A stretch of 64,000 nucleotides of DNA from Arenicola marina (Eukaryota; Annelida; Polychaeta; Arenicolidae). How positions within the stretch are numbered: the stretch's first letter is position 1; the number at the start of each line of letters is the position of its first letter. The stretch is taken from contig OZ025257.1 of assembly GCA_964019135.1 (NCBI GenBank), forward strand, positions 12,365,971-12,429,970. Reading direction: 5' to 3'. Shown here piece by piece: positions 9,901 through 63,171 of the stretch. Below the pieces are notes generated by a model. That model had not been told where the DNA came from. It saw only the letters and a list, made by a program, of their open reading frames with translations, and searched no databases. Position numbers and translations under genes: made by a program.

Positions 9901-9901
9901 A

Positions 9902-10070
9902 GGTTACTGGTTACCCTCTCAAAGACTAGGGGTGAGAGGCCCAGGGTTACTGAGCCTCCCCCTCTCAAAGACTAGGGGTGAGAGGCCCAGGGTTACTGGG
10001 TCTCACCCTCCCGGAGACTGGGGGTGAGAGGCCCAGGTTACTGGGTCTCACCCTCCCGGAGACTCGAGGT
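9902..10070. repeat. ~48-bp repeat overlapping the CNOT1 stop codon
   Basis: About 3.5 copies of a unit containing GGGGTGAGAGGCCCAGGGTT, then ACTGGGTCTCACCCTC. The last coding bases of CNOT1 (residues SLREGETQ and the TAA) lie inside the highest-coordinate copy, so the protein's C-terminal tail is partly repeat-derived. Confidence 0.85.
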
Positions 10071-10113
10071 TGTCCGTGCCTGCATGCAGGACTTGGCCAC
10101 AGACTCGAACAAC
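10038..10113 (-). CDS. CNOT1: CNOT1 exon 46 (terminal coding exon)
   Basis: Residues 2626-2650: [11 protein letters not shown] matches the family's last helix, then a short tail ending GETQ and TAA. The acceptor TTACAG precedes GTTGTTC, and the split AA|G codon joins exon 45. The tail after CMQ is unlike vertebrates and partly lies in the 48-bp repeat. Downstream coordinates are UTR or flank. Confidence 0.9.
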
Positions 10114-13100
10114 CTGTAAATAACGTTAAATAAAAGCGTGATAATACAAAATTACATAAAAACAATACATAATTACAGGTCATAGGTCACAATACAGATT
10201 GAACAAAACAAGGTCACACATGTTTGTAAGATATATGGAGTATGTATCATGTGACATGTAACATACCTGATCAAAAGTAATAATAGATACATGTCACAGT
10301 CACAGATCAGACGGATTCATCCTCACTTGGCATAAAAACCGTTCTCAGTTCTAAAACCCTGTAATCACAACGCCATCCAGAAATGTCGTCATAACGTCCC
10401 CACATAACAATCTAGGGTGCAAGGTATCTTTGTGGATTCGAGCGTAGATAACTGATATACAAGTTATAAAGCTGCGATATCGATGGAGGGAAACAATCTG
10501 TCGCATAAAGGACAAGATCAGAATACATATAAATGTACGGGGATCCACCGTAAACGCTGACGCTCAGAGTTCAAGGTCAAGGCCACGTGTGTACTTACTT
10601 CTGAATCTCCGGCGCGCAGTGAACGAACTCGTGGTTCCAGAACTTGAACTGCGGGTTTTTGATGAGTTCGATGAATGTGATGAGGAGACCCCAGGGGTGG
10701 GGCCGGTTGACGATCAGCCGCTCCAGCAGCACTCTGAAACCACGGTGCAAAGAGAGGGGGGAGGGGGAGGGGGTGAGTAACGCTCCGGGTAGCAATACGG
10801 GGAGTACTTGCAGCAAAACTCACACGAGACCGTTATGACACGTAACTGGTGCATTATGACCCAGCTTATTGTACCATTATGACCCAGCTTATTGTAGCAT
10901 TATGACACAGCTTATTGTAGCATTATGACACAGCTTATTGTAGCATTATGACACAGCTTATTGTACCACTATGACACAGCTTATTGTAGCATTATGACAC
11001 AGCTTATTGTAGCATTATGACCCAGCTTATTGTACCATTATGACCCAGCTTATTGTACCATTATGACCCAGCTTATTGTAGCATTATGACACAGCTTATT
11101 GTAGCATTATGACAGCTTATTGTAGCATTATGACACAGCTTATTGTAGCATTATGACACAGCTTATTGTACCATTATGACAGCTTATTGTAGCATTATGA
11201 CACAGCTTATTGTACCATTATGACCCAGCTTATTGTACCATTATGACCCAGCTTATTGTACCACTATGACACAGCTTATTGTACCATTATGACCCAGCTT
11301 ATTGTACCATTATGACCCAGCTTATTGTACCACTATGACACAGCTTATTGTACCATTATGACCCAGCTTATTGTACCATTATGACCCAGCTTATTGTACC
11401 ATTATGACACAGCTTATTGTACCATTATGACACAACTTATTGTACCATTATGACCCAGCTTATTGTACCACTATGACACAGCTTATTGTACCATTATGAC
11501 ACAGCTTATTGTACCATTATGACCCAGCTTATTGTAGCATTATGACACAGCTTATTGTAGCATTATGACACAGCTTATTGTACCATTATGACCCAGCTTA
11601 TTGTACCATTATGACACAGCTTATTGTACCATTATGACACAGCTTATTGTACCACTATGACACAGCTTATTGTACCATTATGACAGCTTATTTCACCGTT
11701 TTGACGCATACCTAGTGAACCGCCCCACGGGACCTCTCAATTCACCATTATGACATTGCCACACGAAGTGTCGCATTACGACACATCCTACTATACACCT
11801 CACCACACCATTATGGTTGTCCACTCACACATTAATAGTGATATTCCCATAATGACAATCATCACAACACTTACGTCTCACCATTATGACACTTATGTGG
11901 TAATCTGATATGTTGACACATCACATCATCACTATGACACGTATGTGGTAATCTGAGATGTTAGGACACATCAATGTGACACGTATGTTGTAATCTGATA
12001 TGTTATGACACATCATTATGACACATATGTTGTAATCTGATATGTTATGACACATCATTATGACACGTATGTTGTAATCTGATATGTTAGGACACATCAT
12101 TATGACACGTACCTGGTGATCTGTTCCTGGATGCACTCAGTGTTGGCCTCGGCGAACAGGTAGAGCAGGGTGCAGCTGAAGTAGTGCGTGTGGCTGTTGG
12201 GGTACCTCAGCTGGTTGGCGATGGCGTTCAGAAACAGGTAGCGACCTGGCGGAGGGGATGGGGGGGGGGGGGAGACACAGACAGACACGGCGCCATTAGA
12301 GGTAGACAACAGATACAGCGTCAGCGGTGGAAGTTAACAATTGTTAACAATTTTATAATACAAACTTCACCTTTTGAAATGTATAGAGTGAACTACACTC
12401 AAAGCACGTGAATGGTTGCCATTTTGCCGTATTTCGCATGTTTTATACAGCGAGATTGGACAAAATATGGAATAATACATCGTACTGAAATAACTACAAA
12501 TAGCGTGAGGGGCTAAGATGTCAAGATGTTAGGGCGCGATTCAGACCCTTCTCCATATCACATCCCAACATCTCGACTCCCCCCAACTTCCCACTTCCAG
12601 TTTACCTCTCCCCACATCACCCCCGTTAGTACCCACCCTCGGTGTCGAGGTCTACGGCCCTCACCCCACCCCACCCCCGCCCTTCCCCACACCCCCGTGC
12701 CTACTCACCCTCGGTGTCGAGGTCGACGGCCCCCCCCCCACCCCCGCTCTTCCCCACACCCCCGTGCCTACTCACCTTCGGTGTCGAGGTCTACGCCCCC
12801 CCACCCCCACCCCCGCCCTTCCCCACACCCCCGTGCCTACTCACCCTCGGTGTCGAGGTCTACGCCCCCCCCACCCCCGCCCTTCCCCACACCCCCGTGC
12901 CTACTCACCCTCGGTGTCGAGGTGTACGCCCCCCACCCCACCCCGCCCTTCCCCACACCCCCGTGCCTACTCACCCTCGGTGTCGAGGTCTACGGCCCCC
13001 CCCCCCCACCCCGCCCTTCCCCACACCCCCGTGCCTACTCACCCTCGGTGTCGAGGTCGACGCCCCCCCCCCCCCACCCCCGTCCTTCCCCACACCCCCG

Positions 13101-16100
13101 CCCTTCCCCACCCTCGGTGTCGATGTCTACGCCCCCCCACCCCCGCCCTTCCCCACATCACCCCCGTTAGTACCCACCCTCGGTGTCGAGGTCGACGGCC
13201 AGGTTCTGGAAGATGTCCATGTGGGAGGAGTGTGCGATGGTGGCCATGCTGGGGGTGTGGCCCTTGCTGTGGATGAAGCTGATGGCCTGGGTGCCCACGT
13301 ACAGCACCAGCGCGTTGATCAGCGGGATGTTGTACCGCATGCCCGGCTCGCTCGAAACCTGGCGGGGGGAGGCAAACACAACAGCCGCCGTCACACATAG
13401 ACCGATGGAGGGATGGATGGATGGATGGAGGAGTATGCGAAACATTTCCCAATGACGATGGGAATTACAAACACATCTTAGTTATTAATTGCATGATACA
13501 TACTAGGTTAATTTATTTGCAAAGGTAAACTGGGCATAGCTGTAAATTAGGCTTTACACCGAATATCCTGTAACAGGGAATCTGCCCCGTGCGTTCTACC
13601 CCCCCCCCCCACCCCCCAACTACCCCCGTCGTGCCACGCACCTGTAGTTTGCTCCTCAGCTCCGAGAGGAAGGTGACCGGGGAACGGGTCTTCAGGTAGG
13701 AATCCAGGTCCTGCAAGTCACAACAACAACATTCAACATTCGACAAAACAGAAATGTATTATGGTCCCACTGCCTTGGAAGTACGGAGTAAGGATACATG
13801 TATACATACAGTAACTTATGACTTCATCATCACAAATATTTAAATGATATAATAATACTAGTGTCAGTGGCAATATTCTCAAAAACAAGAGTTGCCCTCT
13901 TGGCCATACGATGGACCCGCAACGAACGAGAACTTTTCCACCCACATAAAGTACAGGACAATTTTAAATTCAAAGCTATTTCTTTGTACTCCTAACACCG
14001 AATGCAGAAACAATGATTCGAATATTATTACGGATACGCGATATGGCCTTGACCTCTGTAGGTCATATCGCGACAATGTGAGGGGTCAAAGCAGAGAGGA
14101 GCCGTGCCTCCGGAAGTTACAACTCTTTGCGAAGCGAAATAACGTGGGAACTCTATCCTGCACCAATAGACATTTGCGCAAGTGGGACTCGAACCACGCA
14201 CCGGCCGCTTAGGGCCGGCCTATCGGAAGAGCACACGCGAGAGAGTACACAGTACCTAACTGACTGACTGACCTTCTTGAAGGCGACCGGCTGGATCATC
14301 TTGGCGAAGTTGGTCATGATCCTGGGCGTGTGCGAGATCTCCGGGAGCACGTCCACCTTCAGGTTGGGCGTGAAGGGGTCCGGCAGCCGCATGTTGCGGG
14401 GATACGTGCTCAGGATCAGGTTCCTCATCTGGATGCAGTTGGGCGGGATGACGTCACAGAAGGCGTAGTAGTAGTCGCACAGGAACTCCGGGAAGTCGTG
14501 CAGCAGCACCAGCAGCACGCGCAGCGTCCCCTGGCGGAGGTCAAACAGAGGTCAGATCGGTGACGTCATACATAGAAAAACACACTCCAGCGGCACGCCC
14601 AGCGTTCCATGGTGGAGGTCAAACAGAGGTCAGATCGGTGACGTTATACATAGAAAAACACACTCCAGCGGCACGCCTAGCGTTCCATGGTGGAGGTCAA
14701 ACAGAGGTCAGATAGGTGACGTCATACATAAAAAACTATGTAACAGCACGTGCAGCGTGCCTCGATTGAGGTCAGAGGTCACAGTGACGTTATACATAAA
14801 GAGATCAAACAGAGGTCAGTCCAGTAACATAAGGCCTAAACAGGCGCGTTCAACAATATTTTCCTCGCCCGCGTGAGCAGATCAGCTTCTCAGTTTGCCA
14901 CGCCGCCACCGCAATATATATGTACATATGAATATGAAGTAGATATATTAATCCATTCGGCGAGAGCTGCCGCGTGAGATGCCCACCTTGTAGAGGAGCT
15001 GCGTGGGCTTGGTGAGCTCGGCGTTCCTCAGGAAAGGAGCCAGGAACTTGAAGAGGTCGATGAGGAGCTGGGCATACATGTTCCACCCCTGAGGGTTAGA
15101 AACAGTCTGCATCACTCGATTGTACAGAATCTTCAGCAACCGGTCGGCCATACATACATAGAAACAGATATATATTGCATAGATACAGACCAGGCATGGG
15201 CACAGTAGACAATTGGAGTTACGCTAATGAAATGCTACAATAGTTTATCACCTGCGGGAGGATGGGGAAGGGGTATCGAAGCTTAGCTCGAGTGAGATAC
15301 GCTAACGTACATGATCATATTTCTGGGGACAATAAATCATTTGTAAAAGAAATACGCCCAGTATAGATCGGCTAGACCGGGGTCTTGAACATAGTGAACG
15401 TGGCGTTCCAATGGAGAACAAAACTAAAAGGCAAGACATGCGTCTCAATGGATAGGTCACCGGCAATCGTGTCGTGGTTTTTCTTTTATTTGTATCGGTT
15501 AGGGCGGAGGGGGGGGGGGTGTAAGCATTTCCATATAAAGGAACACAGACAACGTATGCGTGGTTATGAGACTCTCCGACCCGAGAACGTAACTGTCCCA
15601 CCGTAGGTCTGAGAGCCCAGTGCCTTACCGGCTGAGCTGGGGAGGCCTGTCCTGACCTGGGGCCGCTGGTAGGTTCTGTCCAAGGACTACTCACCCTCTG
15701 CTGAGGGGTGATGGCCAGCATGCGGCCAATAAACACCCGATGGGAGACCAGCTCCAGCCAGGCGTACGAGAAGCCAGGGGCCTTGGCCGGCCGCAAGATG
15801 TGGAACGTGTTGCTGCAATGAAAAATCAACCCAAAATCAACCCAAAGTCAATAAATACTTAATCAAAAATCAATCAAGACTGGTTCAACAGTTGATGTTT
15901 TCTGCCAATTTCTGAACAGAACTGAAAAATTGTGCCGATACAGGCCACCAAGTACATATACCAGGGTATTGATGACGTTGGCTTGACCTATACATAAGGA
16001 ATAAAAGACAAAAAGTAAGATAAAATTAAACTTGAATAGATAATACAATAATCAACGATAACTCCAGCCTGGGCCACTCTCACGATCCAGGTAAACACAA

Positions 16101-19100
16101 TACAGGTTTACTGACCAGAATGCGGTAAGGACTTGGTAGTTTTTACTGACCAGAATGCGGTAAGAACTTGGTAGTTTTTACTGACCAGAAGCGGGTAAGG
16201 ACTTGGTAGTTTTTACTGACCAGAAGGCGGTAAGGACTTGGTAGTTTTTACTGACCAGAAGCCGGTAAGGACTTGGTAGTTTTTACTGACCAGAAGGCGG
16301 TAAGGACTTGGTAGTTTTTACTGACCAGAATGCGGTAAGGACTTGGTAGTGTTTACTGACAAGAATGCGGTAAGGACTTGGTAGTGTTTACTGACCAGAA
16401 TGCGGTAAGAATTTGGTAGTGTTTACTGACCAGAATGCGGTAAGGACTTGGTAGTGTTTACTGACCAGAAGGCGGTAAGGACTTGGTAGTTTTTACTGAC
16501 CAGAATGCGGTAAGAACTTGGTAGTTTTTACTGACCAGAAGGCGGTAAGGACTTGGTAGTTATTACTGACCAGAAGATGGTAAGGACTTGGTAGTTTTTA
16601 CTGACGAGAAGGCGGTAAAGACTTGGTAGTTTTTACTGACCAGAAGGCGGTAAGGACTTGGTAGTTTTTACTGACCAGAATGCGGTAAGGACTTGGTAGT
16701 GTTTACTGACAAGAATGCGGTAAGGACTTGGTAGTGTTTACTGACCAGAATGCGGTAAGAACTTGGTAGTGTTTACTGACCAGAATGCGGTAAGGACTTG
16801 GTAGTGTTTACTGACCAGAATGCGGTAAGAACTTGGTAGTTTTTACTGACCAGAAGGCGGTAAGGACTTGGTAGTTATTACCTACCAGAAGACGGTAAGG
16901 ACTTGGTAGTTTTTAATGACGAGAAGGCGGTAAGGACTTGGTAGTTTTTACTGACCAGAAGGCGGTAAGGACTTGGTAGTGTTTACTGACCAGAATGCGG
17001 TAAGAACTTGGTAGTTTTTACTGACCAGAAGGCGGTAAGGATTTGGTAGTTATTACCTACCAGAAGACGGTAAGGACTTGGTAGTTTTTACTGACGAGAA
17101 GGCGGTAAGGACTTGGTAGTTTTTACTGACCAGAAGGCGGTAAGGACTTGGTAGTTTTTACTGACCAGAAGGCGGTAAGGACTTGGTAGTTTTTACTGAC
17201 CAGAAGGCGGTAAGGACTTGGTAGTTGATGCTCTCCAGGATGTGTTCCGGGGCATTGAGCTCGATGAAGAGCATGATGAAGATGCGGTGGTAGGGCAGCT
17301 GTTGGAACTCGGTGTGCCGCACCTCGTGGTCCTGAAGCAGCACGCCAGCCACGATACCAAGCACCTGCGGGGAGAGTCAGTGCAGAGACAATAACCCTCT
17401 ACACAGAGACCAAGCACACGCGGGGAGAGTCAGTGCAGAGAGATTAACCCTCTACACAGAGATCAAGCACCTGCGGGGAGAGTCAGTGCAGAGAGATTAA
17501 CCCTCTACACAGAGATCAAGCACACGCGGGGAGAGTCAGTGCAGAGACATTAACCCTCTACACAGAGATCAAGCACACGCGGGGAGAGTCAGTGCAGAGA
17601 CATTAACCCTGTACACAGAGATCAAGCACACGCGGGGAGAGTCAGTGCAGAGACATTAACCCTCTACACAGAGATCAAGCACACGCGGGGAGAGTCAGTG
17701 CAGAGACATTAACCCTCTACACAGAGATCAAGCACCTGCGGGGAGAGTCAGTGCAGAGACAATAACCCTCTACACAGAGATCAAGCACACGCGGGGAGAG
17801 TCAGTGCAGAGACATTAACCCTCTACACAGAGATCAAGCACACGCGGGGAGAGTCAGTGCAGAGACATTAACCCTCTACACAGAGATCAAGCACCTGCGG
17901 GGAGAGTCAGTGCAGAGACAATAACCCTCTACACAGAGATCAAGCACACGCGGGGAGAGTCAGTGCAGAGACATTAACCCTCTACACAGAGATCAAGCAC
18001 ACGCGGGGAGAGTCAGTGCAGAGACATTAACCCTCTACACAGAGATCAAGCACACGCGGGGAGAGTCAGTGCAGAGACATTAACCCTCTACACAGAGATC
18101 AAGCACCTGCGGGGAGAGTCAGTGCAGAGACAATAACCCTCTACACAGAGATCAAGCACACGCGGGGAGAGTCAGTGCAGAGACATTAACCCTCTACACA
18201 GAGATCAAGCACACGCGGGGAGAGTCAGTGCAGAGACATTAACCCTCTACACAGAGATCAAGCACACGCGGGGAGAGTCAGTGCAGAGACATTAACCCTC
18301 TACACAGAGATCAAGCACACGCGGGGAGAGTCAGTGCAGAGACATTAACCCTCTACACAGAGATCAAGCACACGCGGGGAGAGTCAGTGCAGAGACATTA
18401 ACCCTCTACACAGAGATCAAGCACCTGCGGGGAGAGTCAGTGCAGAGACATTAACCCTCTACACAGAGACCAAGCACACGCGGGGAGAGTCAGCGTATAC
18501 AGGCATTGAACAAACATATAGAGACATTAAACCTTTAAACAGATACCAAACACCTGCGGAGAGGGGTCAATAGAGGCGACTGGCCTACCTTGTTGTGGAG
18601 GGAAAAGGGATCTCCATTCAGCACGAGAGACGGCTGGCCAGGCCTACCTTGTTGAGGAGGTTGATCTTAGTGACGGTGTTAGTCGTGTCCCCGGAGTGCT
18701 TGACGAGCAGGGCGATGAGCCTGACGAAGGCGTCCAGCGTGTGGAAGCACTTGGTGCGGATGATGGTCGGGCTGTGGCTCTGGTCAGCCAGCGCCCGGTA
18801 ACACAGGTCAACGCACATCTCCGTGCACAGCCGGAAGAACCGCGTGATCAGGTCGTCGCTCTTCAGGATACCCTGCTGGTGCATCTGGAGACACGGATGG
18901 GGGGAGTGAGAGGGATATACAGAGGTTAACTCTTCAGGATACCCTGCTGGTGCATCTGGAGACACGGACGAGGGGAGTGAGAGGGATATACAGTGGTTAA
19001 CTCTTCAGGATACCCTGCTGGTGCATCTGGAGACACGGACGTGGGGAGTGAGAGGGATATACAGTGGTTAACTCTTCAGGATACCCTGCTGGTGCATCTG

Positions 19101-22100
19101 GAGACACGGACGTGGGGAGTGAGAGGGATATACAGTGGTTAACTCTTCAGGATACCCTGCTGGTGCATCTGGAGACACGGACGGGAGTGAGAGGGATATA
19201 CAGTGGTTACCTCTTCAGGATACCCTGCTGGTGCATCTGGAGACACGGACGAGGAGAGTGAGAGGGATTTACAGTGGTTAACTCTTCAGGATACCATGCT
19301 GGTGCATCTGGAGACACGGACGGGAGGAGTGAGAGGGATATACAGCGGTTAACGATGGCGTGAAAGGCCTTGCTGCTCTCTCGGCCGGCGGCCGGGGAGT
19401 GGTACAGCGTGATCCACAGGTCTGCCCCTACCTGTGACACGGGTCTGCCCCTACCTGTGACACGGGTCTGCCCCTACCTGTGACACGGGTCTGCCCCTAC
19501 CTGTGACACGGGTCTGCCCCTCCCTGTGACACAGGTCTGCCCCTACCTGTGATACGGTCTGTCCCTACCTGTGACACAGGTCTGCCCCTACCTGTGACAC
19601 AGGTCTGCCCCTACCTGTGACACGGGTCTGCCCCTACCTGTGACGTGAGTCTGCCCGTACCTGTGACACGGGTCCACCCCTACCTGTGACACGGGCCTGT
19701 GACACGGGTCCACCCCTACCTGTGACACGGGCCTGCCCCGACCTGTGACACGGGTCTACCCCTACCTGTGACACAGGTCTGCCCCTACTTGTGACACAGG
19801 TCTGCCCCTACCTGTGACACAGGTCTGCCCCTACCTGTGACACAGGTCTGCCCCTACCTGCGACACGGGTCTACCCCTACCTGCGACACGGGTCTGCCCC
19901 TACCTGTGACACGGGTCTGCCCCTACCTGTGACACGGGTCTGCCCCTACCTGTGACACGGGTCTACCCCTACCTGTGACACGGGTCTACCCCTACCTGTG
20001 ACACAGGTCTGCCCCTACCTGTGACACGGGTCTACGCCTACATGTGACACAGGTCTGCCCCTACCTGTGACACGGATCTGCCCCTACCTGTGACACAGGT
20101 CTGCCCCTACCTGTGACACGGGTCTGCCCCTACCTGTGACACGGGTCTACCCCTACCTGTGACACAGGTCTGCCCCTACCTGTGACACGGGTCTACCCCT
20201 ACCTGTGACACAGGTCTGCCCATACCTGTGACACGGGTCTGCCCCTACCTGTGACACGGGTCTGCCCCTACCTGTGACATGAGTCTGCCCGTACCTGTGA
20301 CACGGGTCCACCCCTACCTGTGACACGGGCCTGTGACACGGGTCCACCCCTACCTGTGACACGGGCCTGCCCCGACCTGTGACACGGGTCTACCCCTACC
20401 TGCGACACGGGTCTGCCCCTACCTGTGACACGGGTCTGCCCCTACCTGTGACACGGGTCTGCCCCTACCTGCGACACGGGTCTACCCCTACTTGTGACAC
20501 AGGTCTGCCCCTACCTGCGACACGGGTCTACCCCTACCTGTGACAGGGGTCTGCCCCTACCTGCGACACGGGTCTGCCCCTACCTGCGACACGCTCTGCC
20601 CCTACCTGTGACACGGGTCTGCCCCTACCTGCGACACGGCTCTACCCCTACCTGTGACACGGGTCTGCCTTTACCTGCGACACTGGTCTGGCACCCCCTG
20701 ACACGGGTCTGCCCCTACCTGTGACAACTGACACGGGTCTGCGCCTACCTGTGACACGATGGCGTGGAAGGCCTTGCTGCTGTCTCGGCCGGCGGCCGGG
20801 GAGTGGTACAGCGTGACCCACTCCCGCAGCAGGAACTCCGTCTTCTCGTGGAGTCCCGGTGGGTCGTCAAACTCGCGGGCCTGGGTGATGCCCGACTGCA
20901 TCATGGAGGTGGGTCCCCCGGGAGCCCGGTCCAGGAGACCCCCATCGTTTTGGGTCCGGATCGTGTCAATCAGGGCCGTCAGTCTGGATCAGGGGCGGAG
21001 ACACACACAGGGATATGATCATTGTAGTTATAATTATTATAGTCTATAATATTATTATAGACCAGGGGTATAATCCTTGTAGTTATAATTATTATAGTCT
21101 ATAATATTATTATAGACCAGGGGTATAATCCTTGTAGTTATAATTATTATAGTCTATAATATTATTATAGATCAGAGGTATAATCCTTGTAGTTAATTGG
21201 TTAAGAATCCAGATCTACTATAGCCATACAGATCTACTCCATTGATCCCAATATACTTCAGTCTAACCTGGATCTATAGCAGTCAAAGGGGGGTAGGGGG
21301 CCCGGGCAGGGGGGGCACGGGGCCCGAGCAGGGGGGCAGGGGGTCCGGACAGGGGGTTAGGGAGCTTGGGCAGGGGGGGAGGGGGCTTGGGGGCCCGGGC
21401 AAGGGGGTAGGGGGTAGAGGGCAGGGGGACAGGGGGGCAGGGGGGGCAGGGGGCATGGGGCAGGGCAGGGGGCAGGGGGGGCAGGGGGACAGGGGGACAG
21501 GGGGGGAAGGGGGGCAGGGGGGCAGGGGGCTCTCCAGACACCCATCACTCACCCCTCTGGCGCCTGTCGGGAGTGCGCGGCGATCCGGGAGAGCGTTTCG
21601 ATCGTGTGGTAGTAGTCAGACTGAAGATACAATACAACAATATAGTCGGATACTATTTCTCACGTGGTTGAGAAGACAAAATGGCGTAAATGTCGCGTTT
21701 TTAACGCTGAAATAGTCCGTAATCTTCGAAAACTTTGATAGTAATCAGCGCCACTTGTTTGATATTGTGATATTGACCCTATATCTTCAATTTCAGATTG
21801 ACTGATATGTAGTTCTTGTCACCTTGACAACCATATAACACGGGCCGTCAATCATTTATTGCTGTTTTTGTCAGACGCAACGTTGTCACTTTCTGGTAGT
21901 TCTCTGAACTGACTATTCACAAGTGCAACAGGGGTTTGTCGAATATTCCACTTATTATGGAATATTAACATAAAGTATTGGCATGTAATATGAGAAGTGT
22001 GACCTCGGCGTCTGACCTCGGGGTCTGACCGTGACCTCTAAACTTTACCCTAACCTCCGGGCGTGAACCACGGAACGTTATGACCTTGACATCGCTTACC

Positions 22101-25100
22101 TCAACCTTGACCCCCTTGATCTTCAGGAGGTTCTGGAGACCCACCTCGTTGGTGCTGTTGCCGGCCTTATCGTCGACGCAGAAGCGCTGGACGAGCTGCA
22201 TGGCGAAGGCGACCACGCCGTAGTTGAGTCCGTTCTCCATGGCCTGGGCCACGTGCTGGTCGTACTGCACCATGGTAACCAGGCCGGAGCGGATCAGGCA
22301 GTCCACCGCCTCCACGTTATACTTGAACTCCTCGCGGCACTCCACCAGACACCTGTCCACGGGGGGGGGGGGGGGGGAGGGGTTAGAGGTTAGGTTGATT
22401 GTATATGGAGGACGCTATTAATTAACCACTTTTGGTCATATCGCGTCAATGGGAGAAGGGAGGAAGAGTGGAGCCATGTCCCCGGAGTAACGCCCTACAA
22501 TTTGCGAATAAGGACATGGGATCTTTACCCTGCGACCACACAGACCTGGCCAGAGCGGGCCTCGAACAATCGACCCACGTGCCGTTAGGCTCTCAGGTTG
22601 CCAGAGCACTCAATGCGAGCGCTCTAGCCCACTGAGTATCGAGCGGGCCCCGTTAGAGGTTAGGGATTTACTTGTGTATTGGACAGGAGCAGATATATAG
22701 TGCAGATATTATGGTAAATTGCGGCGAATTCCGGAGCCACTGTCAGTGTGTACTCTATAGGTCTATGATGATCGTCACTGTTGTCGAGGTATCCATAGGA
22801 CATTAACAAAGAAGGGGGGGAGGGGGAGGCAAAACGGACTACTGAGTACTGACCTGGTGACCTGCTTGTTGGTCCACTGCGGGCCGTATGCCCGCTGATC
22901 CTGAAGCCCTTTCAGCACCAGGAGGTGGCAGTCGCGGAAGCGGAGCAGCAGGTCCTCCTTGGCGGACAGCAGGCTGAGGCCCTCCAGAAGGCCCTCCACG
23001 GCCTTCTGGATCAGCGCCACGGCGGCCACGATCTCGCGAGAGTTGCGCGCCAGGACGATGGCCTCGAGCAGGGCCTGCAGTGCCGCCACCTGGGGGCTGC
23101 CCGGGGGCGCCAGGATGGTGTGCAGGTGCTGCTCGATCTCCCGGACGATCTGGTCGTAGATCTGCGTCATCTCGTCCGTCGCCGCGTTCTGGCAGGCGGC
23201 AAATAGAGCGGGTGGTTTAGGCCACTTTTGTGTGCACATGAATCAAGGAATAAAATGGAGAAATAGGGAAAAAGCTCTCGGGACAATGATATGGTGTTTG
23301 CATCAAATGCTTTATTGGTTCGCTATAAGCAGTTAATGGTTTGATTGGTTATAGCATACTTATATGTCATTCCAATCAATTGACCTGACTGGTTACTCAG
23401 CCAATCCGGTTAAACAAACAATTGATTTGTTGATTGGACAAAGCGAGGGTACAAAAGTCCGGTAGGGTGGGGTCTCTACGGGCGGACTTACCTGGTTTGG
23501 TCGGACCATGTAGGGGACACTCTGACTGGACTCCTGGGCTGTGGACAGGAACCCCGGCGTGCTCCGGGCGAACTCCTCGTACACAGCGATCTGCTGGTGG
23601 GTCACCCCGCCAACCTGAAGCGACATTTACACAGCCTATAGATAACACAGCGGCACACAGCCTATAGATAACACAGGGGCACACAGCCTATAGATAACAC
23701 AGGAGCACACAGCCTATAGATTACACAGGGGCACACAGCCTATAGATAACACAGGGGCACACAGCCTATAGATAACACAGGGGCACACAGCCTATAGTTA
23801 ACACAGGGGCAAACAGGTTCAAAACTACTTGATAGTGAACTTAATCAACTTATGTTAGTCCAGTGTTTTTGTGAACTTTGTAAGGAATTTCTACAGCATA
23901 TTCCTTTATAACCGCAGGAACTCTTGCACAAGAGGAATGCCACATGTTCCCAAATTTGTGTAAGGAGTTTCTACAACATTTTCCTTTGTAACCTCAGGAA
24001 CTCTTGCCCTAGAGGAATGCCACATTACCAAAATTTGGCGAATGGTCTGCTGACAGACAAACAACAAATGCCGTGACTGGCACACAACAGCCGTGACTGG
24101 CACACAACAGCCGTGACTGGCCCACAACAGCCGTGGCTGGCACACAACAGCCGTGACTGGCCAGGAGGTGTCCGTCCGGGCTGGTCAGCAGGTGCGCGGC
24201 GCGGTGGTCGGTCTCACCTTGAGTCGGATCTGTTCGGGCATCCTCTCGGCCTGGTAGGTGAGCACGACGGGGTCGCAGTACCGCCGGCCCTCGTTACGGG
24301 CGTGCTTGCGCAACTCGTACTCCTGTAACACAGTCAAGTCGTACCTCTATCAACACGTGGGCTTAGTGGTAGCACAAAGCAAAAGAGGATAGGATGTTCA
24401 ACCGAAACAGGGGAAAAGCTGAAGACATTTCTTTCACAATTCGTTCCAAAACAACACCTAATTTTCATCAGTATCACGTTTCTGTTAATATCTAGTATAT
24501 TCGCTGATACACATCATCCAGGGCGGGCATTTTGATCTTAAAATGTTTTGGGTCCTGTCACGGATTATGCGTTTATGATGCTTTACAGAGCAAATTGAAG
24601 CACCAACATGTCATTTCATCGCAATACAGACTGTTACTACATTAAACTTGTGTATCTAGTGCGGCCTTCATTTCATCACAATTCGCCTTCATTTCATCAC
24701 AATTCGGACAAGGCAATCGTATCGCGAGCTCTGACCTAGTAAATTAAAAAGAACATTGAAGTGAAAATTGTTGCATGAAGAGCTTTACACTAGACGATTG
24801 TGGCGACGTACCGTAGACAGGCGCTTGTCCATCTCGGGAATGGCTTTCTCGACGGCAGTCTTCTGGATGAAGGCGCAGGCCAGCTCCATGTTGTCCTGGG
24901 CGATCACCTGGGCAACCGCCTCCATCATCTCCTTCTGCTGCGGCGTGGCGCCCTGCGAGTCAAATTTTTTTTCTTCCTAATATGATTAAAATGGGGGAGT
25001 TCTTAACTAAGGCAAAACAAATCTTACGTTTGTTTCTAATTCACCATTTACGATTGCGATCAACAAGGAACGTGGCGAGGGATGGAGATCAGTAAAGGCA

Positions 25101-28100
25101 ACAAACTATTACATCGAAACTTGTGTTTTTCGATGCATATTTGGTTTGACCTTCATTCGACCTCCACGCTGTGCCAATGACCTCCGTGTACCCTAACATC
25201 CAGTTCACCGTGATACCTTCAGGCGTGGTTACTACAGGCGGTATAGTACCCAACCCCTCGTAGCTCAGCTGGTAGCACACTTTGCTTTAGATTAAGACAC
25301 CCCATTAACTAACATATACCACTAACATACTATAAATGTTTTCGCAGCGGCAAATAATTTGTTCTGATGCTATCACCTTCCGTCATTATATGCAATACCT
25401 ATGTCGTCTATCTAGTATTCTCGACCACGACTTCCCTGACCCTGACCCATCTTCACAGTTCGACCTTCCACTGACCCTGGAAGCGCTTTTGGACCCTGAC
25501 CCTCCTCACAGTTCGACCTTCCACTGACGCTGAGAGCGCTCTTACCCCCTGACCCTCCTCACAGTTTGACCTTCCACTGACCCTGAGAGCGTTCATGAAC
25601 GCTGTCTTGATGTTGTTGCTGACGCTGACGAGGAGCGGTTCTCGACACGTGATCAGAGCCATCCCTGACGTCATGAACTTGGCCATGTGGTGCGCCGCTG
25701 TGCGCATGCGCGCCTCCTCGGGGTCCAGCGCGAAGTCCTAGAATTGAAGGTTAACAATAGTGTCTTGCATAATTTATTATAAATTCTTTGTCACAAAGGG
25801 AATGACAATTTTGAGAGGTTTGTTACTTAAACAGGGCTTTATAATTGTAAGCTTCTCGTTTGGTATTTTTTCAGACGTCAAAAAAACGAGTTGAGCTAGC
25901 GGATTTGGGGTAATGCTAATAAGGGATCCATGGTCTACCTTCTTGACGATTTGCTCAGACGTCGCCAGAGCAATCTTGAGGGAGCGTTCCACCACCAGAG
26001 GGAGCATCTCCTGCACGGCGCGCTCGACGGCCGGCCACACGACCTGCTTCAGCTGCGGGTTGGCCACGAAAAACGCCAGCTGTCAACAGAAAGGAAGAGG
26101 TCAAAGGTCAAAGGTTATAGCGAGATGCTAGGCCACACGACCTACTTCCGCAGACCGGTGGCCACGAAAAACGCCAGCTGTCAACAGCAAGAAGGTCAAA
26201 GGTCAAAGGTTATAGCGTTTCACTTGAAGATTAGTAATAAAAGTAAGGAAGTATATAAAATCTTGTGTATCACTGAAAAATAAAATGCGCTAAAAAAACG
26301 CCATATAAACTGTAATAAATAAAGCATTTATATTTATTTGGCGACGGTTGTAGACTGAAATGTCAACTTAATACGAGCATCCCAATCTACGCATCCACTG
26401 TATATTTACGTCCCAAATATCATAATACATAATATCATTGTTGGTTGTTGTTGTTGGCATCCGTCAGTCTACGAAAGACGATGGATTTTGCAGCTTTGCT
26501 AGATTTCACGTGATACGATTTGCGTCGCGGCATCTGCGCTTATGACTGAACAAGCCTATCTGTGACCGACAGAGCTTGCCGCATCGATTACCCGTAGATA
26601 GGTCTTGATTTATACTCACTGGGTGCCTAGATTGGCGTTTCAAGTCTAATTTGTCAAACCAGAGCCCGTCGTAGTGGGCCATTCCCTCACGCAAGACACG
26701 TGACCATTCCCTCATAACACATAATATCATTCCACACACATGATATCACGGGTATACAAGCAGACTACCCCCTTAGCCTAATCCATTCACATTGTCCAGA
26801 ATGCGAAATGTTACATACTATGAATTTACACCAATTATGCCAAGTTTATTTGCCCATTTTTGTACCAAGCCTATCTACCCGCTGGTTGGCATCCGCCCTC
26901 TGCGAAAGACGATGTATTTGCTGCGTCTGTTGTGGCTTAAGTAATTTTGCATCGCGGTATTTACACTTATGACTGTATAAGCCTATCTGTGACCCAAAGA
27001 GCTCACAGCAGTCGTCGCATCGATGACCTGACGTTAGGTCTGGGCAATTAGCCACTACTACTGTACTAAGCACCCATAATGGACATAATGTCACACCCAC
27101 CTGCTCATTGATGGTGATGTGCTGGGCCAGGCCAGGCAGGGACAGCACGTTGATCTCGTGGTAGCCGAAGCGAGGCTGGGGCGGCAGGACCACGGGGGTG
27201 GTGGTCGTGGTGGTGGTGGTGGTCGAGGTGGTGACGGTGGCGGCCTGGGCGGCCGTGGTGGTCGGGGTGGGCATGTTGATCTGCAGTGGCTCCTCCGGCT
27301 GGGGGGTGGAGGATTCCTTGACGCGACTGGGCGCGGAGAGCTGGTGCTCAATCTTATTCAGTCGCTCTTGGTCCTTTAGGTAGTTGGACGGGTGGAGATC
27401 CTGCAGTTGCGGAGAAAAAATTAATACCATGGCGACATTAATGATAATTAATAGGCAGCTAGACGTTACCATGGCGATGTGCTTTAACATAATATGGTAG
27501 CGGACGGGGTGGAGGTCCTGCAGTGGGAGAGAAACAAATGTTACCATAGCGACATTAATGATAATCAACAGGCAGCTGGACGATACCATGGCAATGTTAT
27601 TCAATATAATATGGTAGCGGACGGGGACAATTGTTATCATGACGACAATAATCGACAGGGTGTTAAAAAGACAAAGGGTGACCGAAAGACAATATTATCT
27701 TGACGCTTTTGTCTTACATAAAAGTCGAACATTATGGAGTAAAATTGAAATATCACTAACTGAAAAACAAAGTATACCAGTTTGATTCCACTAGATTAGC
27801 GACGACACGTGCATCTATGGTTCCTTTCTTACCATAAATAAGACTAGATACATTACAAAAAACTTACGTTGATGTCTATATTGAGGTTCTTGCAGAGAAC
27901 TTCGATTTCAAACTTGAGATTGAGTTTGAGTTCTGGCTCCTGGTGGAGTTCGGCCAAGCCGTTCATGATGGCCATGGTCCAGGGGTTGGGAGGTTTGAAC
28001 ACCTGAACACAGGGAGCAAGGCTGTCAGTCAAATCTTCACAACACTGTACGAGAGTTACGGACAGAGGGGAGGTAATTCTGGGTGCATACGTCACCCACT

Positions 28101-31100: not shown

Positions 31101-34100
31101 GCTGCTACAGCTGGATGTCGGACCAATAAAATTGCCTAACGCACCACACACGCCATAGCATTAAGGCGTAGGGCCATATCCAGGTCCACTTCGCGGGAGA
31201 GGTACAGAGAGGTTCTAACGTTAATTTAAGTTAATTTTACTTACGTGACCAGGCCTTGCTCTATGATGCCTCCAAACAGCACTGCCGTGGTGTTGAGTTC
31301 CTTCTCAGGGTATTGAGGGAAGAAGCGGTACTCCTCAAAGAGATTCCTCAGCATACAAGAGAATACGTCCTGGAGGTAAGAGAGGGAAAATTCATTGATG
31401 TAAGAGCTATATTGATATGACAATAGGAACGATGAAATAATATTAGCAAAGAGCGACACAGAGACTTGACCAGGACTTACAATGGCATATATTTACAATT
31501 CGTAAAGACACTAGAAAAGAAGCGATATTGACGAGACACTAGAAAAGGAGCGATATTGACGAGACACTAGAAAAGGAGCGATATTGACGAGACACTAGAA
31601 AAGGAGCAATATTGAAATGACACTAGAAAGGGAGCAATACTGAAATGACACTAGCGAAGGAGCGATATTGACAAGAAAAGGAACGGTATAAACAAGACAC
31701 CGACAAGATACTGACATGACACTAGCGAGGAAGCAGGCCTGAAAAAGCCTAGCAACGAGAGACTAGTCGAGATATTCTATCAATATTGATAACTCTGCCA
31801 ATGGTAACACTGACAACACGGGCCACCATACCCGTTCCTGTAACACTGACAACACGGGCCACCATACCCGTTCCTGTAACACTGACAACACGGGCCACCA
31901 TACCCGTTCCTGTAACACTGACAACACGGGCCACCATACCCGTTCCTGTAACACTGACAACACGGGCCACCATACCCGTTCCTGTAACACTGACAACACG
32001 GGCCACCATACCCGTTCCTGTAACACTGACAACACGGGCCACCATACCCGTTCCTGTAACACTGACAACACGGGCCACCATACCCGTTCCTGTAACACTG
32101 ACAACACGGGCCACCATACCCGTTCCTGTAACACTGACAACACGGGCCACCATACCCGTTCCTGTAACACTGACAACACGGGCCACCATACCCGTTCCTG
32201 TAACACTGACAACACGGGCCACCATACCCGTTCCTGTAACACTGACAACACGGGCCACCATACCCGTTCCTGTAACACTGACAACACGGGCCACCATACC
32301 CGTTCCTGTAACACTGACAACACGGGCCACCATACCCGTTCCTGTAACACTGACAACACGGGCCACCATACCCGTTCCTGTAACACTGACAACACGGGCC
32401 ACCATACCCGTTCCTGTAACACTGACAACACGGGCCACCATACCCGTTCCTGTAACACTGACAACACGGGCCACCATACCCGTTCCTGTAACACTGACAA
32501 CACGGGCCACCATACCCGTTCCTGTAACACTGACAACACGGGCCACCATACCCGTTCCTTCTTGACGGGGGACTCCTTGAAGCGCCGCAACATGTCGAGC
32601 ACGTCGTCAATGGAGATGGTCGGGTGGGGCGGGTGGTTGTAGATACGCTGGAAGTACGAGTTGGCCTCGTCCTCGATCTCCTTCGAGAACTGTTGGTTCA
32701 TGGCCGGGAAGATGCTCGACGTGTCTCCCCCAAGCGCACCGGCTAAACCACAGGGAGACGTGGAGGAGGAGATTACGGTATGCATCAGTAAAACTATACA
32801 AAGGATATCAAACCAAATGAGAGTTTTTAATTAAAATTTTTTTTTTTATATATATGAAAGTAAAACCGTGAATTTTCAGCGAAGATTGTATGCTGACTAG
32901 TTACCTTAGTCATGTAAACTATATTTTTGTTGCGACCTTGTGGGTCGATACATTAGGCTTCTGTCAGGTTCCTGAATAGTTCTCATCCGACGACTGAGAT
33001 TTGCACAATAGGTTACGACCTCTTCACGCAGCAGAAGGTTGGATTCGAACCCAGCACCGGCCGCTAAGGTTGGCGGGTCTTGACGTACCTCTGTTGCCCC
33101 TGGCGATACCCTCGGCAGGGGTCGGGGGTTTGATCCCGCCAGCCTGCCCAGTCAGCGGACCCAGCGTCGGCGTCACACGCGACGTCGACATCCCCGCCAT
33201 GGCCGACGTCGTGGTCAAGGTGGAGGAGAGGCCGGTGGTGGAGAGGCCCGAGGAGAGCCCGGAGGCCAGCCCGGCAGACAGGCCCGTCGACGGCATACCC
33301 ATCGGCATGCCGGAGGGCAGCCCGGCGGACAGGCCCGACTGGAGGCCGGACGCCAAACCCGAGGGGAGACCGGACTGGAGACCAGAGGGGCCAGTCGGCA
33401 TGCCACCGCTGGACATGGTCGTCTGTAAGTTCATGCCTGGATGGCGGGTGGGGGGGGGGGGGGTAACAAAAAAGGATTGTAAAGAAGAGGAACTTTCAGG
33501 TCATTGGCTCATTTTGGGTCTACCGCTAAATCGGAATAAGGCGTTATATTTGTATAAGATTAAAATATATAATATCAAAAGGTCGGATTCAGCGATCCGT
33601 TTCTCACCTTGCAGCTGAGAGCTCAGGGACTGCAGCGAGTTGAAGCCGCCCGTCTGTCCCTGCCCCATACCGATCTGTCCCATGCTGACCTGACCCAGAC
33701 CGCCTTGACCCAGGCCGCCTTGACCCAGACCGCCTTGACCCAGGCCGCCCTGACCCATGCCGCCTTGTCCCATGCCGCCTTGACCCATGCCGACCTGACC
33801 CAGGCCGCCCTGACCCATGCCGCCCTGACCCAGGCCGCCCTGGCCCATGCCGCCCTGACCCATGCCGCCCTGGCCCATGCCAACCTGCCCAAGGCCGCCC
33901 TGGCCAAGGCCGCCCTGGCCGAGGCCGCCTGGCCCCAGGCCGGGGAAGCTCTTGGCGGGGGAGCCCGGGGTGGCCACGAGGGAGGCCAGGCTGGCGGGGA
34001 AGGCGCTGGTCAGGGCACCGCTGCTGGATACCCCGGCAGCCGCCGCTGCCGCCGCTGCCGCCGCGGCCACCGCGGGGTTAGGGCCCATGCCTAGCGAGGA

Positions 34101-35190: not shown

Positions 35191-35225
<35 letters not shown>

Positions 35226-38200
35226 TGCTGGCGTGCTTTGTGCTGGTTCAGTATGGCGTTGACGTTGGTTACCATGGTCACGATAGTGTCATGCAGCTCT
35301 TTCGCCACGCTGCTGTTAATGCAAGGTGATCATCACTATGAAATAAATGGGTCATTTAGCCCCACACGGCTAACCTGGGCCAAGAACGATGAAGGATGAA
35401 CGGAAGATACATGCCCAAGATTGTTATTTGGACATCATTATTGTTTTTAAAAAATAATTAATTCCCGAACATCATCTATTTACTCCATGTATATAATATT
35501 GTTCAAGTTAGAAAGTATCTCTCGCTTCAGGTCTTCATCCCATAAGATTCGCAACGGAGCGAGACAGACGTAATGGTATACTGTTAGCCGATAGAATTCA
35601 AAAATACGGCAGGCAAGCCGACATAACGGTTAGTTAGTTAGATCCAACCACTTTTGATAACTTTATTACTAATAGCGCCGCCAGATAAGCAGGCTAACCG
35701 GGTTCCTCCCCAGGCTACCCGGCTCCACCCTAGGCTAACCTGCTCCTCCCCAGGCCAAAACCTGTTCCACCCCAGGCTAACTTCCTCCTCCCCAGGCTAA
35801 CCTGCTCCTCCCCAGATTAACTTGCCCTTCCCAAGGCTATCTTGCCCTTCCCCAGGCTATCCTGCTCCTCCCCAAGCTAACCGGCTCCTCCCCATGCTAA
35901 CCGGCTCCTCCCCAGGCTAACCGGCTCCTCCCCATGCTAACCGGCTCCTCCCCAGACTAACTTGCCCTTCCCCAGGCTATCCTGCTCCTCCCCAGGCTAA
36001 CCGGCTCCTCCCCAGGCTATCCTGCTTCTCCCCAAGCTAACCGGCTCCTCCCCATGCTAACCGGCTCCTCCCCAGGCTAACCGGCTCCTCCCCAGTCTAA
36101 CCGGCTCCTCCCCAGACTAACTTGCCCTTCCCCAGGCTATCCTGCTCCTCCCCAGGCTAACCGGCTCCTCCCCAGGCTAACTGACTCCTCCCCAGGCTAA
36201 CCGGCTCCTCTCCAGGCTAACCGACTCCTCCCCAGGCTAACCGGCTCCTCCCCAGTCTAACTGGCTCTTCCCCAAACTAACTTGCCCTTCCCCAGGCTAT
36301 CCTGCTCCTCCCCAGGCTAACCGGCTCCTCCCCAGGCTAACCGGCTCCTCCCCAAACTAACTTGCCCCTCCCCAAACTAACTTGCCCTTCCCCAGGCTAT
36401 CCTGCTCCTCCCCAGGCTAACCGGCTCCTCCCCAGGCTAACTGGCTCCTCCCCATGCTAACCGGCTCCTCTCCAGGCTAACTGGCTCCTCCCCAGGCTAA
36501 CCAGCTCCTCCCTAGGCTAACTTGCTCCTCCCCAGGCTAACCGGCTCCTCCCCAAGCTAACCAGCTCCTCCCCAGGCTAACCACCTCCTCCCCAGGCTAA
36601 CCAGCTCCTCCCCAGGCTAACCTGCTCCTCCCCGCCAATCTTGCCAAAATAACCGACGCGCACTCTTACAATCGTTACGCATGGGTGACTCCATAACCAG
36701 AAGCAAACCACGTGGCTTCTACGGCAATCGGCGTCGAAATGATCACCCCCCCCCACTCTATATTATATCACTACAACGGTATTCTTGCTGGCGACGTTGA
36801 GACTTACTTGGCGCAGTTCTGGAGACAGGCGAGCATTATGGTGATGGTCTCGGGAGGCAGCTGCTGGCTCTTCACCTGTGGCTGCTGCTCGTCCTTCATG
36901 GCGCTGCCGATCAGCTGCGGACAGCGCCGCTTGAGGAAGTGAACGGCCACCTGCACGAAGGGCTCCTGGGGGCGGGCAGAGAGAACGCGGGCGTACAGAC
37001 TGCAGCGTAGACAGGACAGACTGCAGCATAGACATGGTGGCGCGGGACAGACTGCAGCATAGACATGGTGGCGCGGGACAGACTGTAGCATAGACATGGC
37101 GGCGCGGGAGAAACTGCAGCATAGACATGGTGACGCGGGACAGACTGCAGCATAGACATGGTGGCGCGGGACAGACTGCAGCATAGACATGGTGGCGCGG
37201 GACAGACTGCAGCATAGACATGGTGGCGCGGGACAGACTGCAGCATAGACATGGTGGCGCGGGACAGACTGCAGCATAGACATGGTGGCGCGGGACAGAC
37301 TGCAGCATAGACATGGCGGCGCGGGAGAAACTGCAGCATAGACATGGTGGCGCGGGACAGACTGCAGCATAGACATGGTGGCGCGGGACAGACTGCAGCA
37401 TAGACATGGTGGCGCGGGACAGACTGCAGCATAGACATGGTGGCGCGGGACAGACTGCAGCATAGACATGGTGGCGCAGGACAGACTGCAGCATAGACAT
37501 GGTGGCGCGGGACAGACTGCAGCATAGACATGGTGGCGCGGGACAGACTGCAGCATAGACATGGCGGCGCGGGAGAAACTGCAGCATAGACATGGTGGCG
37601 CGGGACAGACTGCAGCATAGACATGGTGGCGCGGGACAGACTGCAGCATAGACATGGTGGCGCGGGACAGACTGCAGCATAGACATGGCGCGGGACAGAC
37701 TGCAGCATAGACATGGTGGCGCGGGACAGACTGCAGCATAGACATGGTGGCGCAGGACAGACTGCAGCATAGACATGGCGGCGCAGGACAGACTGCAGCA
37801 TAGATATGGCGGCGCAGGGCAGACACTCTTGTCAGCGACGGGAATTTATACATGTGGATTCATTCAGGGGAGTAAATGGAGGGAGAATAGAGCGTGCTCA
37901 ATGAAACATAGACTTTCTTACCGTACACGACTCACATGGAGTATTCTGACCCCCCCTTAGACGCACCCCGTGTTATCCGATCCCCGCTAGATTCAACCAG
38001 TGTATTTTCCCAAGAATGTTATGCCAGTATGCCGTGATCTCCCTCGGACCTACCCCGTGCTCCCTGATCTTGTCGCTGAGCCACTTGTCCAGCTTGAGGT
38101 ACTCCCTGCGAGACGCCAGACAGGCCAGGTCGATGACGAAGGCGAACGGCGTGGCATTCAGCAACATCGACAGCGCCTGGAACAACACCAACAACATATG

Positions 38201-41200
38201 TACACGGGGGTTGCTAACCGATTACGTGTAGCACAGAATGAGAATATCATGTTTATACGTCACCGACACATCTCAGCCCATTTCCCATGTTAGAGCCCAC
38301 AAAATCGAAATTGTAAGCATGACTGAGGCATGATGAGAAGTGGCTAAAATAATGGTTCGCCTTAACGTGGAGCAACAACCAAAGTTTCTTTCACAAGGCG
38401 GCTGTAGGATAATATAAAGGGAGTTTCACAGGCCTGGCGAGGGGTTCTCTTTTACTTGTTTTAACTGCATCGGGTGGACTTAACAGTTATAAGAAAAGTT
38501 ATAATCTATATCTATCGTTCAGGTAACCTTAGAATTATCCGTTATGAGCGAAAGCGGCCACTGAATTTGGACAAATACTGCATCGATTTTCCTTCCCACA
38601 AAAGGGTTAACTAATTACCATGATAACGGCGCCTCACATTTTTGTGTTATATTACATTGCAAGGAAAGGACACCTCAACCTTCGTATGTAATCGCGATAA
38701 TGTAAAGGACAAGGTAGAGAGGAGCAATGTATTCGAGTAACGAAAGGCATAGAATCTGCATCTTGCGCAAACATAGATATTTGCACAGGTGGGGCTCAAA
38801 CCAAGCAACATCCGCTTGCGCTGGCCCATCAGCACCAAGGGGTGACCCCGACTCACACTGTCATAGAGGTTGATACATTAGACAGGAGTTACCTTGAGAT
38901 CTTGTGCCACATCGAGGATCCTGGATAGTCGGACCTGGTCATGGTGCTCACCGCGCATGTACCACTCCGCCATGGCGTGCATCACCAAGGTGCGAGTCGT
39001 GCTCGACTGGCCCTGTAATACAGACACAACTGGCCTTGTAATATATACACACAACTGGCCCTGTAATATATAGACACACAACTGCACACTACTGAGAATG
39101 TTACCAGACAGTCCCCACGCTATGACAGCGCATACAAGCAAAGATATATTGAAGCAATTATTCTTATGACGCAACACTGAACTATGTGAACTTGCATGTA
39201 TTTTACCAACTTATTTGTTAAAAATAAAATCTGTACTCTTTACTCGGAGGCAGTAAGAGACTGCGATCCAGCTATTACATGGATCTCACTTCCCTCTAGT
39301 AACACGACAAGTAACCTACCTGGCAGTGCCATGCATAGTGTAGCACTATGGCGGAGTTGGGGTGGTTGCCCAGGAAGATAGGCATCAGGTTGGATAACAG
39401 CTCGTGTTTCAATGTGTTCAATGTCGTCTGTAAAAAAAAAACAGCAAAATTATAAACAAAGAAATGGCATTTTACGAACAGCTGTGTGGTCTAAAAAAAA
39501 ATTCCATATATCAATAAAGTGATAATCACGTCATGGCAAATATACAATAGTGGAATGTTAGACTGACTAGTGTACAGAATATCAAATTAAGTATGATACT
39601 TTGATTTTGAAGGACACATCTTAATACACAAGGGAATAGTGTATATATATCTCTCTCTTTAGCCTATCGTTTGACTTTTCTTATCACATATTCGCTAAAA
39701 ATATTTGAGGAACTGGAGATGTCGCCCTAACTCATATGAATCATTGATACAAATGATAAGGCTGCATCGTTAGGCTTACAATTTGCAGTAGGGCGAGGAC
39801 TAGCATGTCTGGACAGTGCTGGACTGGGAACTTGAACAGTTCTGACACCGCTTGGTAGTGACCGGCCTCGGCCAAACGTAGCATCGTCTCCACCAAGTCC
39901 AGCGATTTCCTGCAAGCACATCACAATTTCCCAGTCATCAGCTGTTAACTGCGCAACTCTCATTGATTTTGAGACATATGGAAACAAGTGCACACATAAA
40001 ACATCATAAATATGGATACAATTGCACATACACATACATAAAACATCATAAATAGGGAAAACATTATATTTAAAACCATCAGAATCCATAGACCTATAAA
40101 TGCACATTCTATAATATATCTACTTATTTCTCTAATATGATTTTGTTCCCAAGGGACGATGATACCATAATTTGTATCCAACGGGAAACATGATATTCTG
40201 GTATTTTAACTAATCGATGCGATGAGTGAGATAAATATTATGTCAAATACAAAAAAACACAGGCAGAAAGTACGCATACACGATTCACACTTCATCCGAA
40301 AAAAAATATCAGTCTCAAAACACATGATTCATACTTCATCCAAAAAACAATATCAGTCTCAAAACACACGATTCATACTTCATCCGAAAAACAATATCAG
40401 TCTCAAAACACATGATTCATACTTCATCCGAAAAACAATATCAGTCTTATAACACACGATTCATACTTCATCCGAAAAACAATATCGGTCTCAAAACACA
40501 CGATTCATACTTCATCCGAAAAACAATATCAGTCTCAAAACACATGATTCATACTTCATCCGAAAAACAATATCAGTCTTATAACACACGATTCATACTT
40601 CATCCGAAAAACAATATCAGTCTCAAAACACACGATTCATACTTCATCCGAAAAACAATATCAGTCTCAAAACACACGATTCATGCTTCATCCGAAAAAC
40701 AATATCAGTCTCAAAACACACGATTCATACTTCATCCGAAAAACAATATCAGTCTCAAAACCATTTATGGGTGTCCTACCAACGCCTCGTAGAGACAACC
40801 TAAGCGACTGTTATTTGCCTCACCATGTTGCTATGTCTCGGTTGTCATCGTCGGGCGGCGTTTTCAGTATGTCTATAACTACAGGGTGACAAGGATAGTC
40901 GGCGAAGCAAAACACATCCGGGTTCTTCAGGGCGTGGGATATGAACGACAGCTGAAAAGGAAGGAAGAAAGATACAATTTAACGCCATCATAAAAGTATA
41001 ATATGAACAAATGGTGAGATTCAATGTGAAGCTCGTGGTCAAAATGAATTTCTGACATGGCTTTTGCTATTTATTCTTTGAAATGGCAATGCTATCATTT
41101 CGGCGACATTTCTCGTGACGAAATAAAACTATTTACCAATGTTCCGGATGGCCTTGTTGATATAATTTATGTTTTAAAGTGTTCTCACAGGAAACACACA

Positions 41201-63170: not shown

Positions 63171-63171
63171 C

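Follow-up and report, generated by a model that had tools for sequence, protein, structure and literature searches.

Tandem copies of splice junctions in a CNOT1 gene: a dense set of mirage-type minisatellites

Splice junctions of CNOT1 are multiplied in tandem

The splice junctions of a CNOT1 gene were analyzed in a window of 64,000 nucleotides (contig OZ025257.1, positions 12,365,971 to 12,429,970). Coordinates given below are those of the window, and all CNOT1 features lie on its minus strand. Extra copies of the junction are present at 13 of the 90 splice junctions of the gene, about one in seven. This confirms as real the multiplication proposed in a preliminary description of the sequence, which had named the acceptors of exons 13, 27, 28, 37, 38 and 41 and the donors of exons 19, 29, 36, 37, 38, 43 and 44; with Tandem Repeats Finder (TRF), self-comparison and pairwise alignment, an extra copy was found at every one of them. 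Arrays occur within introns as well as at exon edges, and the reading frame of the gene is open when the exon-proximal copies are taken as exon ends. We consider it probable that the arrays are ordinary local tandem duplications, minisatellites of the type called "mirages" in amphioxus, which are tolerated since the exon-proximal copy stays in the mRNA; a modest excess at junctions is left unexplained.

TRF arrays (score 50, period of at least 7, overlapping rows merged) were intersected with the exon edges and span 11 of the 90 junctions: acceptors 13, 27, 37, 38 and 41, and donors 19, 29, 36, 38, 43 and 44. The remaining two are two-copy cases. A blastn self-comparison covering all 90 junctions (E <= 1e-3, 6 or more bases to either side of the junction, same strand) also gives 11 junctions; acceptor 28 is among them, and acceptor 13 and donor 37 are not. 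In pairwise alignments the second copy is clear at acceptor 28 and short at donor 37, where it matches at 18 of 19 bases; donor 37 is the weakest of the 13 junctions and a marginal case.

On the acceptor side, exon 13 (39006-39084; TRF, not in the blastn scan) is preceded by about 3 copies of a 25-27 bp unit that includes 7 exon bases. At exon 27 (27386-27626; TRF and blastn) a 117 bp unit with 15 exon bases is present twice, and at exon 28 (26033-26217) two copies with 47 exon bases lie about 98 bp apart, as detected by blastn (E = 4e-26) and alignment and not by TRF at score 50. The exon 37 array (18859-19353; TRF and blastn) contains 7 copies of a 71 bp unit with 26 exon bases, and that of exon 38 (17358-18493; TRF) 21.4 copies of a 53 bp unit with 7 exon bases. 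At exon 41 (14509-14736) a 78 bp unit with 22 exon bases is repeated 2.9 times, and the AG is gone from both extra copies.

Among the donors, exon 19 (31804-32559) carries 21 copies of a 36 bp unit which are 100% identical, include 8 exon bases and leave the frame open throughout. Exon 29 (25438-25591; TRF and blastn) has 2.9 copies of a 53 bp unit with 10 exon bases. The exon 36 array (19415-20756) amounts to about 56-58 copies of a 23 bp unit with 8 exon bases and results from merged TRF rows: the main 23-bp row stays 22 bases away from the exon, and the junction is crossed by a second row, of 30 bp and 2 copies (20698-20756), that overlaps the first. At the far end of this array in intron 36, a 66-bp segment (19352-19417) repeats the 3' end of exon 36 with 95% identity. 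The weak second copy at donor 37 (18582-18659), detected by pairwise alignment only, is about 60 bp away. The unit at exon 38 (16107-17226; TRF) is 35 bp long with 26 of its bases exonic and is repeated 32 times. Exon 43 (12609-13200; TRF) has 8.6 copies of a 69 bp unit with 20-23 exon bases, and exon 44 (11882-12123) 5.6 copies of a 42 bp unit with 11 exon bases, in which the GT is gone from all five extra copies.

The unit lengths given in the preliminary description, 23-117 bp, are the TRF periods of the 11 arrays, and its copy numbers of 2-58 agree with TRF values from about 2 to 58 across these arrays (56 at donor 36 by a separate search). The exonic part of the unit, put there at 4-60 bases, covers a narrower range when measured, 7-26 bases in the 11 TRF arrays, 47 at acceptor 28 and about 12 at donor 37. 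The units are, as had been stated, unrelated between arrays, the best cross-array scores in a comparison of consensus sequences being C/G-rich low-complexity runs. Independence of the repeats was also claimed; their sequences are indeed unlike, but five of the 13 junctions, from donor 36 to donor 38, directly follow one another (P = 0.0024 by shuffling, or 0.008 when only the last 68 junctions are considered), so that the events are not clearly independent. A mobile unit common to the arrays was considered and rejected: the TRF consensus units with a period of at least 14 share no sequence beyond low-complexity runs.

Gene model

The CNOT1 coding region extends from 50625 down to 10038 in 46 coding exons. 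Exon cores were read from translations and splice points were set by the reading frame, i.e. from homology and sequence. The resulting coding sequence of 7953 nt holds 2650 codons plus the stop with zero internal stops, and in the rebuilt model all 45 introns have GT-AG ends. A draft of the protein, from which exons 17 and 18 were missing along with some residues, could be aligned over its N-terminal, middle and C-terminal parts with PDB chains named CCR4-NOT subunit 1, which we take to be human. In this alignment eight of the 11 introns with TRF spanning arrays (12, 19, 27, 29, 36, 37, 40 and 43) are gapless, and for intron 26 the match table gives equal lengths. At introns 38 and 44, residues missing from the draft are supplied in the final model by a longer exon or a split codon (not re-aligned). 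No inserted residues relative to the PDB chains are present at the introns seen in the alignment. The open frame over the 46 exons and the homology to these chains fit use of the exon-proximal copies as splice sites.

Arrays away from the junctions

In total 32 TRF arrays were identified in CNOT1. Four are wholly exonic, one lies over the stop codon and 27 are associated with introns. The idea that repeats are tolerated only at junctions is not borne out, 16 of these 27 being wholly intronic, in addition to the four wholly exonic ones. The latter (period of at least 7; a period-3 run in exon 27 was excluded from the count) are found in exons 16-18, and all four have a period divisible by 3 (P = 0.012), whereas the spanning units exhibit no frame preference (5/11 divisible by 3, P = 0.29). 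This difference supports the view that copies within exons would reach the mRNA and that copies at junctions would not. The exon 17 array (33658-33929) is an in-frame coding minisatellite of 18 copies of a 15-bp unit, rich in Gly, Gln, Met and Leu.

The stop-codon array (9889-10064) is composed of 3.9 copies of a 46 bp unit; the TAA is at 10038-10040, and the 24 coding bases ahead of it are within the array. It resembles the junction arrays in that a single functional copy sits at the border and spare ones lie beyond it, with no splice site involved. Although only one case, it spans an edge of constraint that is not a splice site and favours tolerance at such edges rather than a cause specific to splicing.

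Placement of the arrays relative to the junctions

Randomized placement within this gene, which the preliminary description had proposed as a check, puts the junction arrays above expectation: 11 of the 27 intron-associated arrays span a junction for 4.85 expected (P = 0.002). In this null, applied intron by intron, each array is collapsed to one founder unit, which counts as spanning when it straddles either intron edge by at least 4 bases. The founder unit seems the fair object to place rather than the grown array, because an array would grow within the limits of its founder. P ranges from 0.002 to 0.014 across six of seven TRF settings; at the loosest one, 11 of 38 arrays are spanning for 6.35 expected (P = 0.029), and without introns 36-38 the count is 7 of 22 for 3.5 expected (P = 0.037). 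Including the two two-copy cases gives 13/29 (P = 0.0004), a figure biased toward the claim because intronic two-copy events were sought with less care. When the intron array of a neighbouring leucine-rich-repeat gene is added, the result is 11/28 (P = 0.002). A whole-gene null (3.1 expected, P = 5e-5) was not retained as the main figure, since it is inflated by the first intron, which is 5 kb long and contains a single TRF array.

The junction excess is real but modest, about twofold, and unproven as a general rule. To call it far from chance, as was first done, is too strong. Junctions are often spanned by geometry alone, since units of 23-117 bases are placed in introns that, once collapsed, mostly measure 155-571 bases; moreover, P rises to 0.03-0.04 in the last two of these tests on TRF settings and introns, and CNOT1 was chosen because it is striking.

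Founder units cover 57 of the 450 sites located at most 5 bases from a junction (12.7%), 113 of 2221 sites at 50-75 bases (5.1%) and 160 of 3615 sites at 100-150 bases (4.4%), in bins where neighbouring sites are non-independent and where the deep sites come from longer introns. Crowding of all arrays at exon edges was also considered and rejected: the 16 non-spanning arrays are about evenly placed, with a mean relative position of 0.44 (0.5 if uniform). Together with the stop-codon array, which has no splice site, this even placement means that the mechanism favouring exon edges that had been put forward is not required. The exon share of the unit is small, with a mean of 0.30 in the 11 TRF arrays (P = 0.01 versus uniform), which fits a filter against copies carrying much exon.

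Splice sites within the arrays

A segment was counted as an extra copy if its identity around the junction was at least 62%. Of 123 extra donor copies 117 keep GT, and the exon 44 array accounts for five of the six losses; AG is kept in 14 of 33 extra acceptor copies. In the exon 36 donor array, 54 of 55 extra copies have kept the GT. At the exon 38 acceptor the 53-bp copies are nearly invariant save for the acceptor dinucleotide, which is GT in 16 of the 21 extra copies and AG in 5. We do not claim that selection silences the extra sites: the site is lost in at least half of the extra copies in 3 of 6 acceptor arrays versus 1 of 7 donor arrays (Fisher P = 0.27). Differences are no more frequent at the splice dinucleotide than at the other sites of the intron (5/26 vs 48/266, P = 0.53); the count was made without gaps, and indels inflate it in about three arrays.

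Sites were scored with a matrix built from the other splice sites of CNOT1. At exon 36 the real donor is slightly above every intact copy (9.2 versus at most 8.7). Over all arrays, the score of the real site is equalled or exceeded by 55 of the 117 intact extra donors and by 6 of the 14 intact extra acceptors. As judged from these scores, site strength alone cannot direct the spliceosome at several arrays.

Reading through the arrays, a stop is encountered within 3-42 codons at six of the seven donors, and upstream of acceptors 41, 38 and 28 the frame stays open for no more than 1-7 codons. Longer open frames extend over 262 codons at donor 19 and over 98, 66 and 40 codons upstream of acceptors 27, 13 and 37, respectively. 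At exon 19, use of any copy as donor would add residues in steps of 12.

Origin and maintenance of the arrays

In the explanation that we hold to be probable, local tandem duplication and unequal exchange would build arrays throughout the repeat-rich CNOT1 gene. Founder units confined to an exon would be purged by selection unless they are in frame within a tolerant linker. A founder straddling a splice junction would be tolerated because the authentic edge is kept as the exon-proximal copy and the other copies fall in the intron, from which they would be spliced out. This exon-proximal copy would be the only one used, probably through exon definition, and at donors the earlier transcription of the real site may help. 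The roughly twofold excess would then have arisen incidentally, through ascertainment, persistence or mild local fragility, and not through a dedicated mechanism. Several observations weigh against this explanation. The 11 spanning arrays for 4.85 expected (P = 0.002) exceed what purely geometric tolerance would give, the reason why intact copies scoring as high as the real site should be ignored is unexplained, and the use of the exon-proximal copy is predicted from homology.

The same excess is what would be seen if exon edges were mutational hot spots, junction duplication being driven by a process coupled to transcription or splicing (stalled polymerase, R-loops, a step in base composition). 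Other observations point in the same direction: founder units cover 12.7% of the sites at most 5 bases from a junction versus 4-5% of those at 50-150 bases, five junctions in a row are affected, and donors (7) and acceptors (6) are similarly involved. Nevertheless, the non-spanning arrays are not drawn to the edges, the arrays end at varying depths in the exon, from 7 to 47 bases, instead of being fixed to the splice motif, and the stop-codon array has no splice site; P is only 0.03-0.04 in two sensitivity tests, and the data concern a single gene selected as striking. We regard such hot spots as unlikely, though not far-fetched. That a process of this kind would actively direct duplication to exon edges genome-wide, with a spliceosome reliably picking the exon-proximal site among dozens, appears distinctly unlikely. 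The extra copies might also be used, distal donors or acceptors yielding alternative proteins or tuning splicing and the arrays being retained for that purpose. The frame open through the exon 19 array, those open before exons 27, 13 and 37, and the GT intact in nearly all extra donors would suit such a role; the early stops at the other donor arrays and at acceptors 41, 38 and 28, the lack of frame preference of the units, and the loss of the extra sites in the exon 44 and 41 arrays and of most of them in the acceptor 38 array make it quite improbable. Finally, copy numbers could be in part an assembly artefact, as 21 perfect copies at exon 19 might suggest. According to the published accounts, amphioxus assemblies differ in copy number for the same arrays (PMC3902484), and one amphioxus globin array was aberrantly assembled (PMC3087553). 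The other spanning arrays have diverged units (84-96% match), which assembly errors could not invent, and the spanning of a junction is independent of copy number; we consider this explanation very improbable. Ordinary tandem duplication, tolerated where the exon edge is preserved, is the explanation that we retain.

Relation to known systems

Tandem repeats over exon-intron boundaries have been described in amphioxus under the name of mirages, in Adh3 and globins (PMC3087553) and also in PGBD5 and troponin C (PMC3902484); the likeness to amphioxus Adh mentioned in the preliminary description is thus in print. In these reports splicing is seemingly undisturbed, and intron gain is suggested (PMC3087553, PMC3902484). 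As in the mirages reported for Adh3, globins BflGb6 and BflGb9, PGBD5 and troponin C, the CNOT1 units span the boundary and include the splice site, at donors or acceptors; this is the case at 11/90 junctions by TRF, and at 13/90 with the two-copy cases. They are also minisatellite-sized, 23-117 bp in the 11 TRF arrays, where reported mirage units range from 10-72 bp (Adh3) to 150-160 bp (globin). CNOT1 differs in having 13 of 90 junctions affected in one gene, with up to about 56 copies in an array and, at exon 19, 21 perfect ones. For some amphioxus mirages length instability and normal splicing are reported; the CNOT1 analysis covers a single sequence.

Related cases have been reported elsewhere. 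Human segmental duplications are described as containing internal minisatellites, on average 4 copies of a 30-bp unit, some of them at exon-intron boundaries, from which new introns were inferred (PMC2812944). Those repeats are reported in recent paralogues, half of them in coding sequence, whereas CNOT1 is a conserved gene with no new intron shown. In potato, a new intron is reported to have arisen by duplication across an intron-exon boundary (PMC4974935); CNOT1 differs from this case in having no shown new intron position and far higher copy numbers. In introns of amphioxus VCBP3, exons are described as being copied completely or in part, and splice sites are included in some of these copies (PMC2632668). 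Published genome-wide counts of junction-spanning arrays were not found in literature searches that covered a library of open-licence papers.

CNOT1 adds a very dense case to the already known mirages, with a twofold excess at junctions. If the host is not an amphioxus, the class of junction-spanning arrays is wider than found in print. A density of 13/90 bears both on a possible bias toward exon edges and on tandem duplication as a source of introns. The arrays also raise the question of how the right splice site is chosen among many near-identical ones. Choice of the spliceosome among identical nearby sites is usually studied with constructs; CNOT1 offers 131 intact extra sites (117 donors and 14 acceptors), with a clear expectation for each. 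Further donors number 20 at exon 19, identical over the 36-base unit, 31 at exon 38 and, with GT intact, 54 at exon 36. In the acceptor arrays the copies are placed upstream, where they would be met first.

Other repeats and genes in the window

The region around CNOT1 is generally rich in minisatellites. A 14-bp unit is repeated 167 times within 1933-4278, and an array with a 17-bp unit (63161-64000) continues past the window end. A leucine-rich-repeat gene on the minus strand (55200-57700) contains an array of 27 copies of a 16-bp unit about 30 bases into its one intron, the donor not being spanned (exon edge placed by eye). In a Pfam search of 10 other open reading frames, the leucine-rich-repeat protein is the sole match above the curated cut-off, and the search yielded no second multi-intron gene as a control. 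A dispersed family resembling short interspersed nuclear elements is present at 22426, 28134 and 42538, where its members have in common, with at most one mismatch, the string CCACTTTTGGTCATATCGCGTC; a SINE-like string had no match in the collections genome_contigs and viral_contigs. Rfam and tRNA scans gave no matches.

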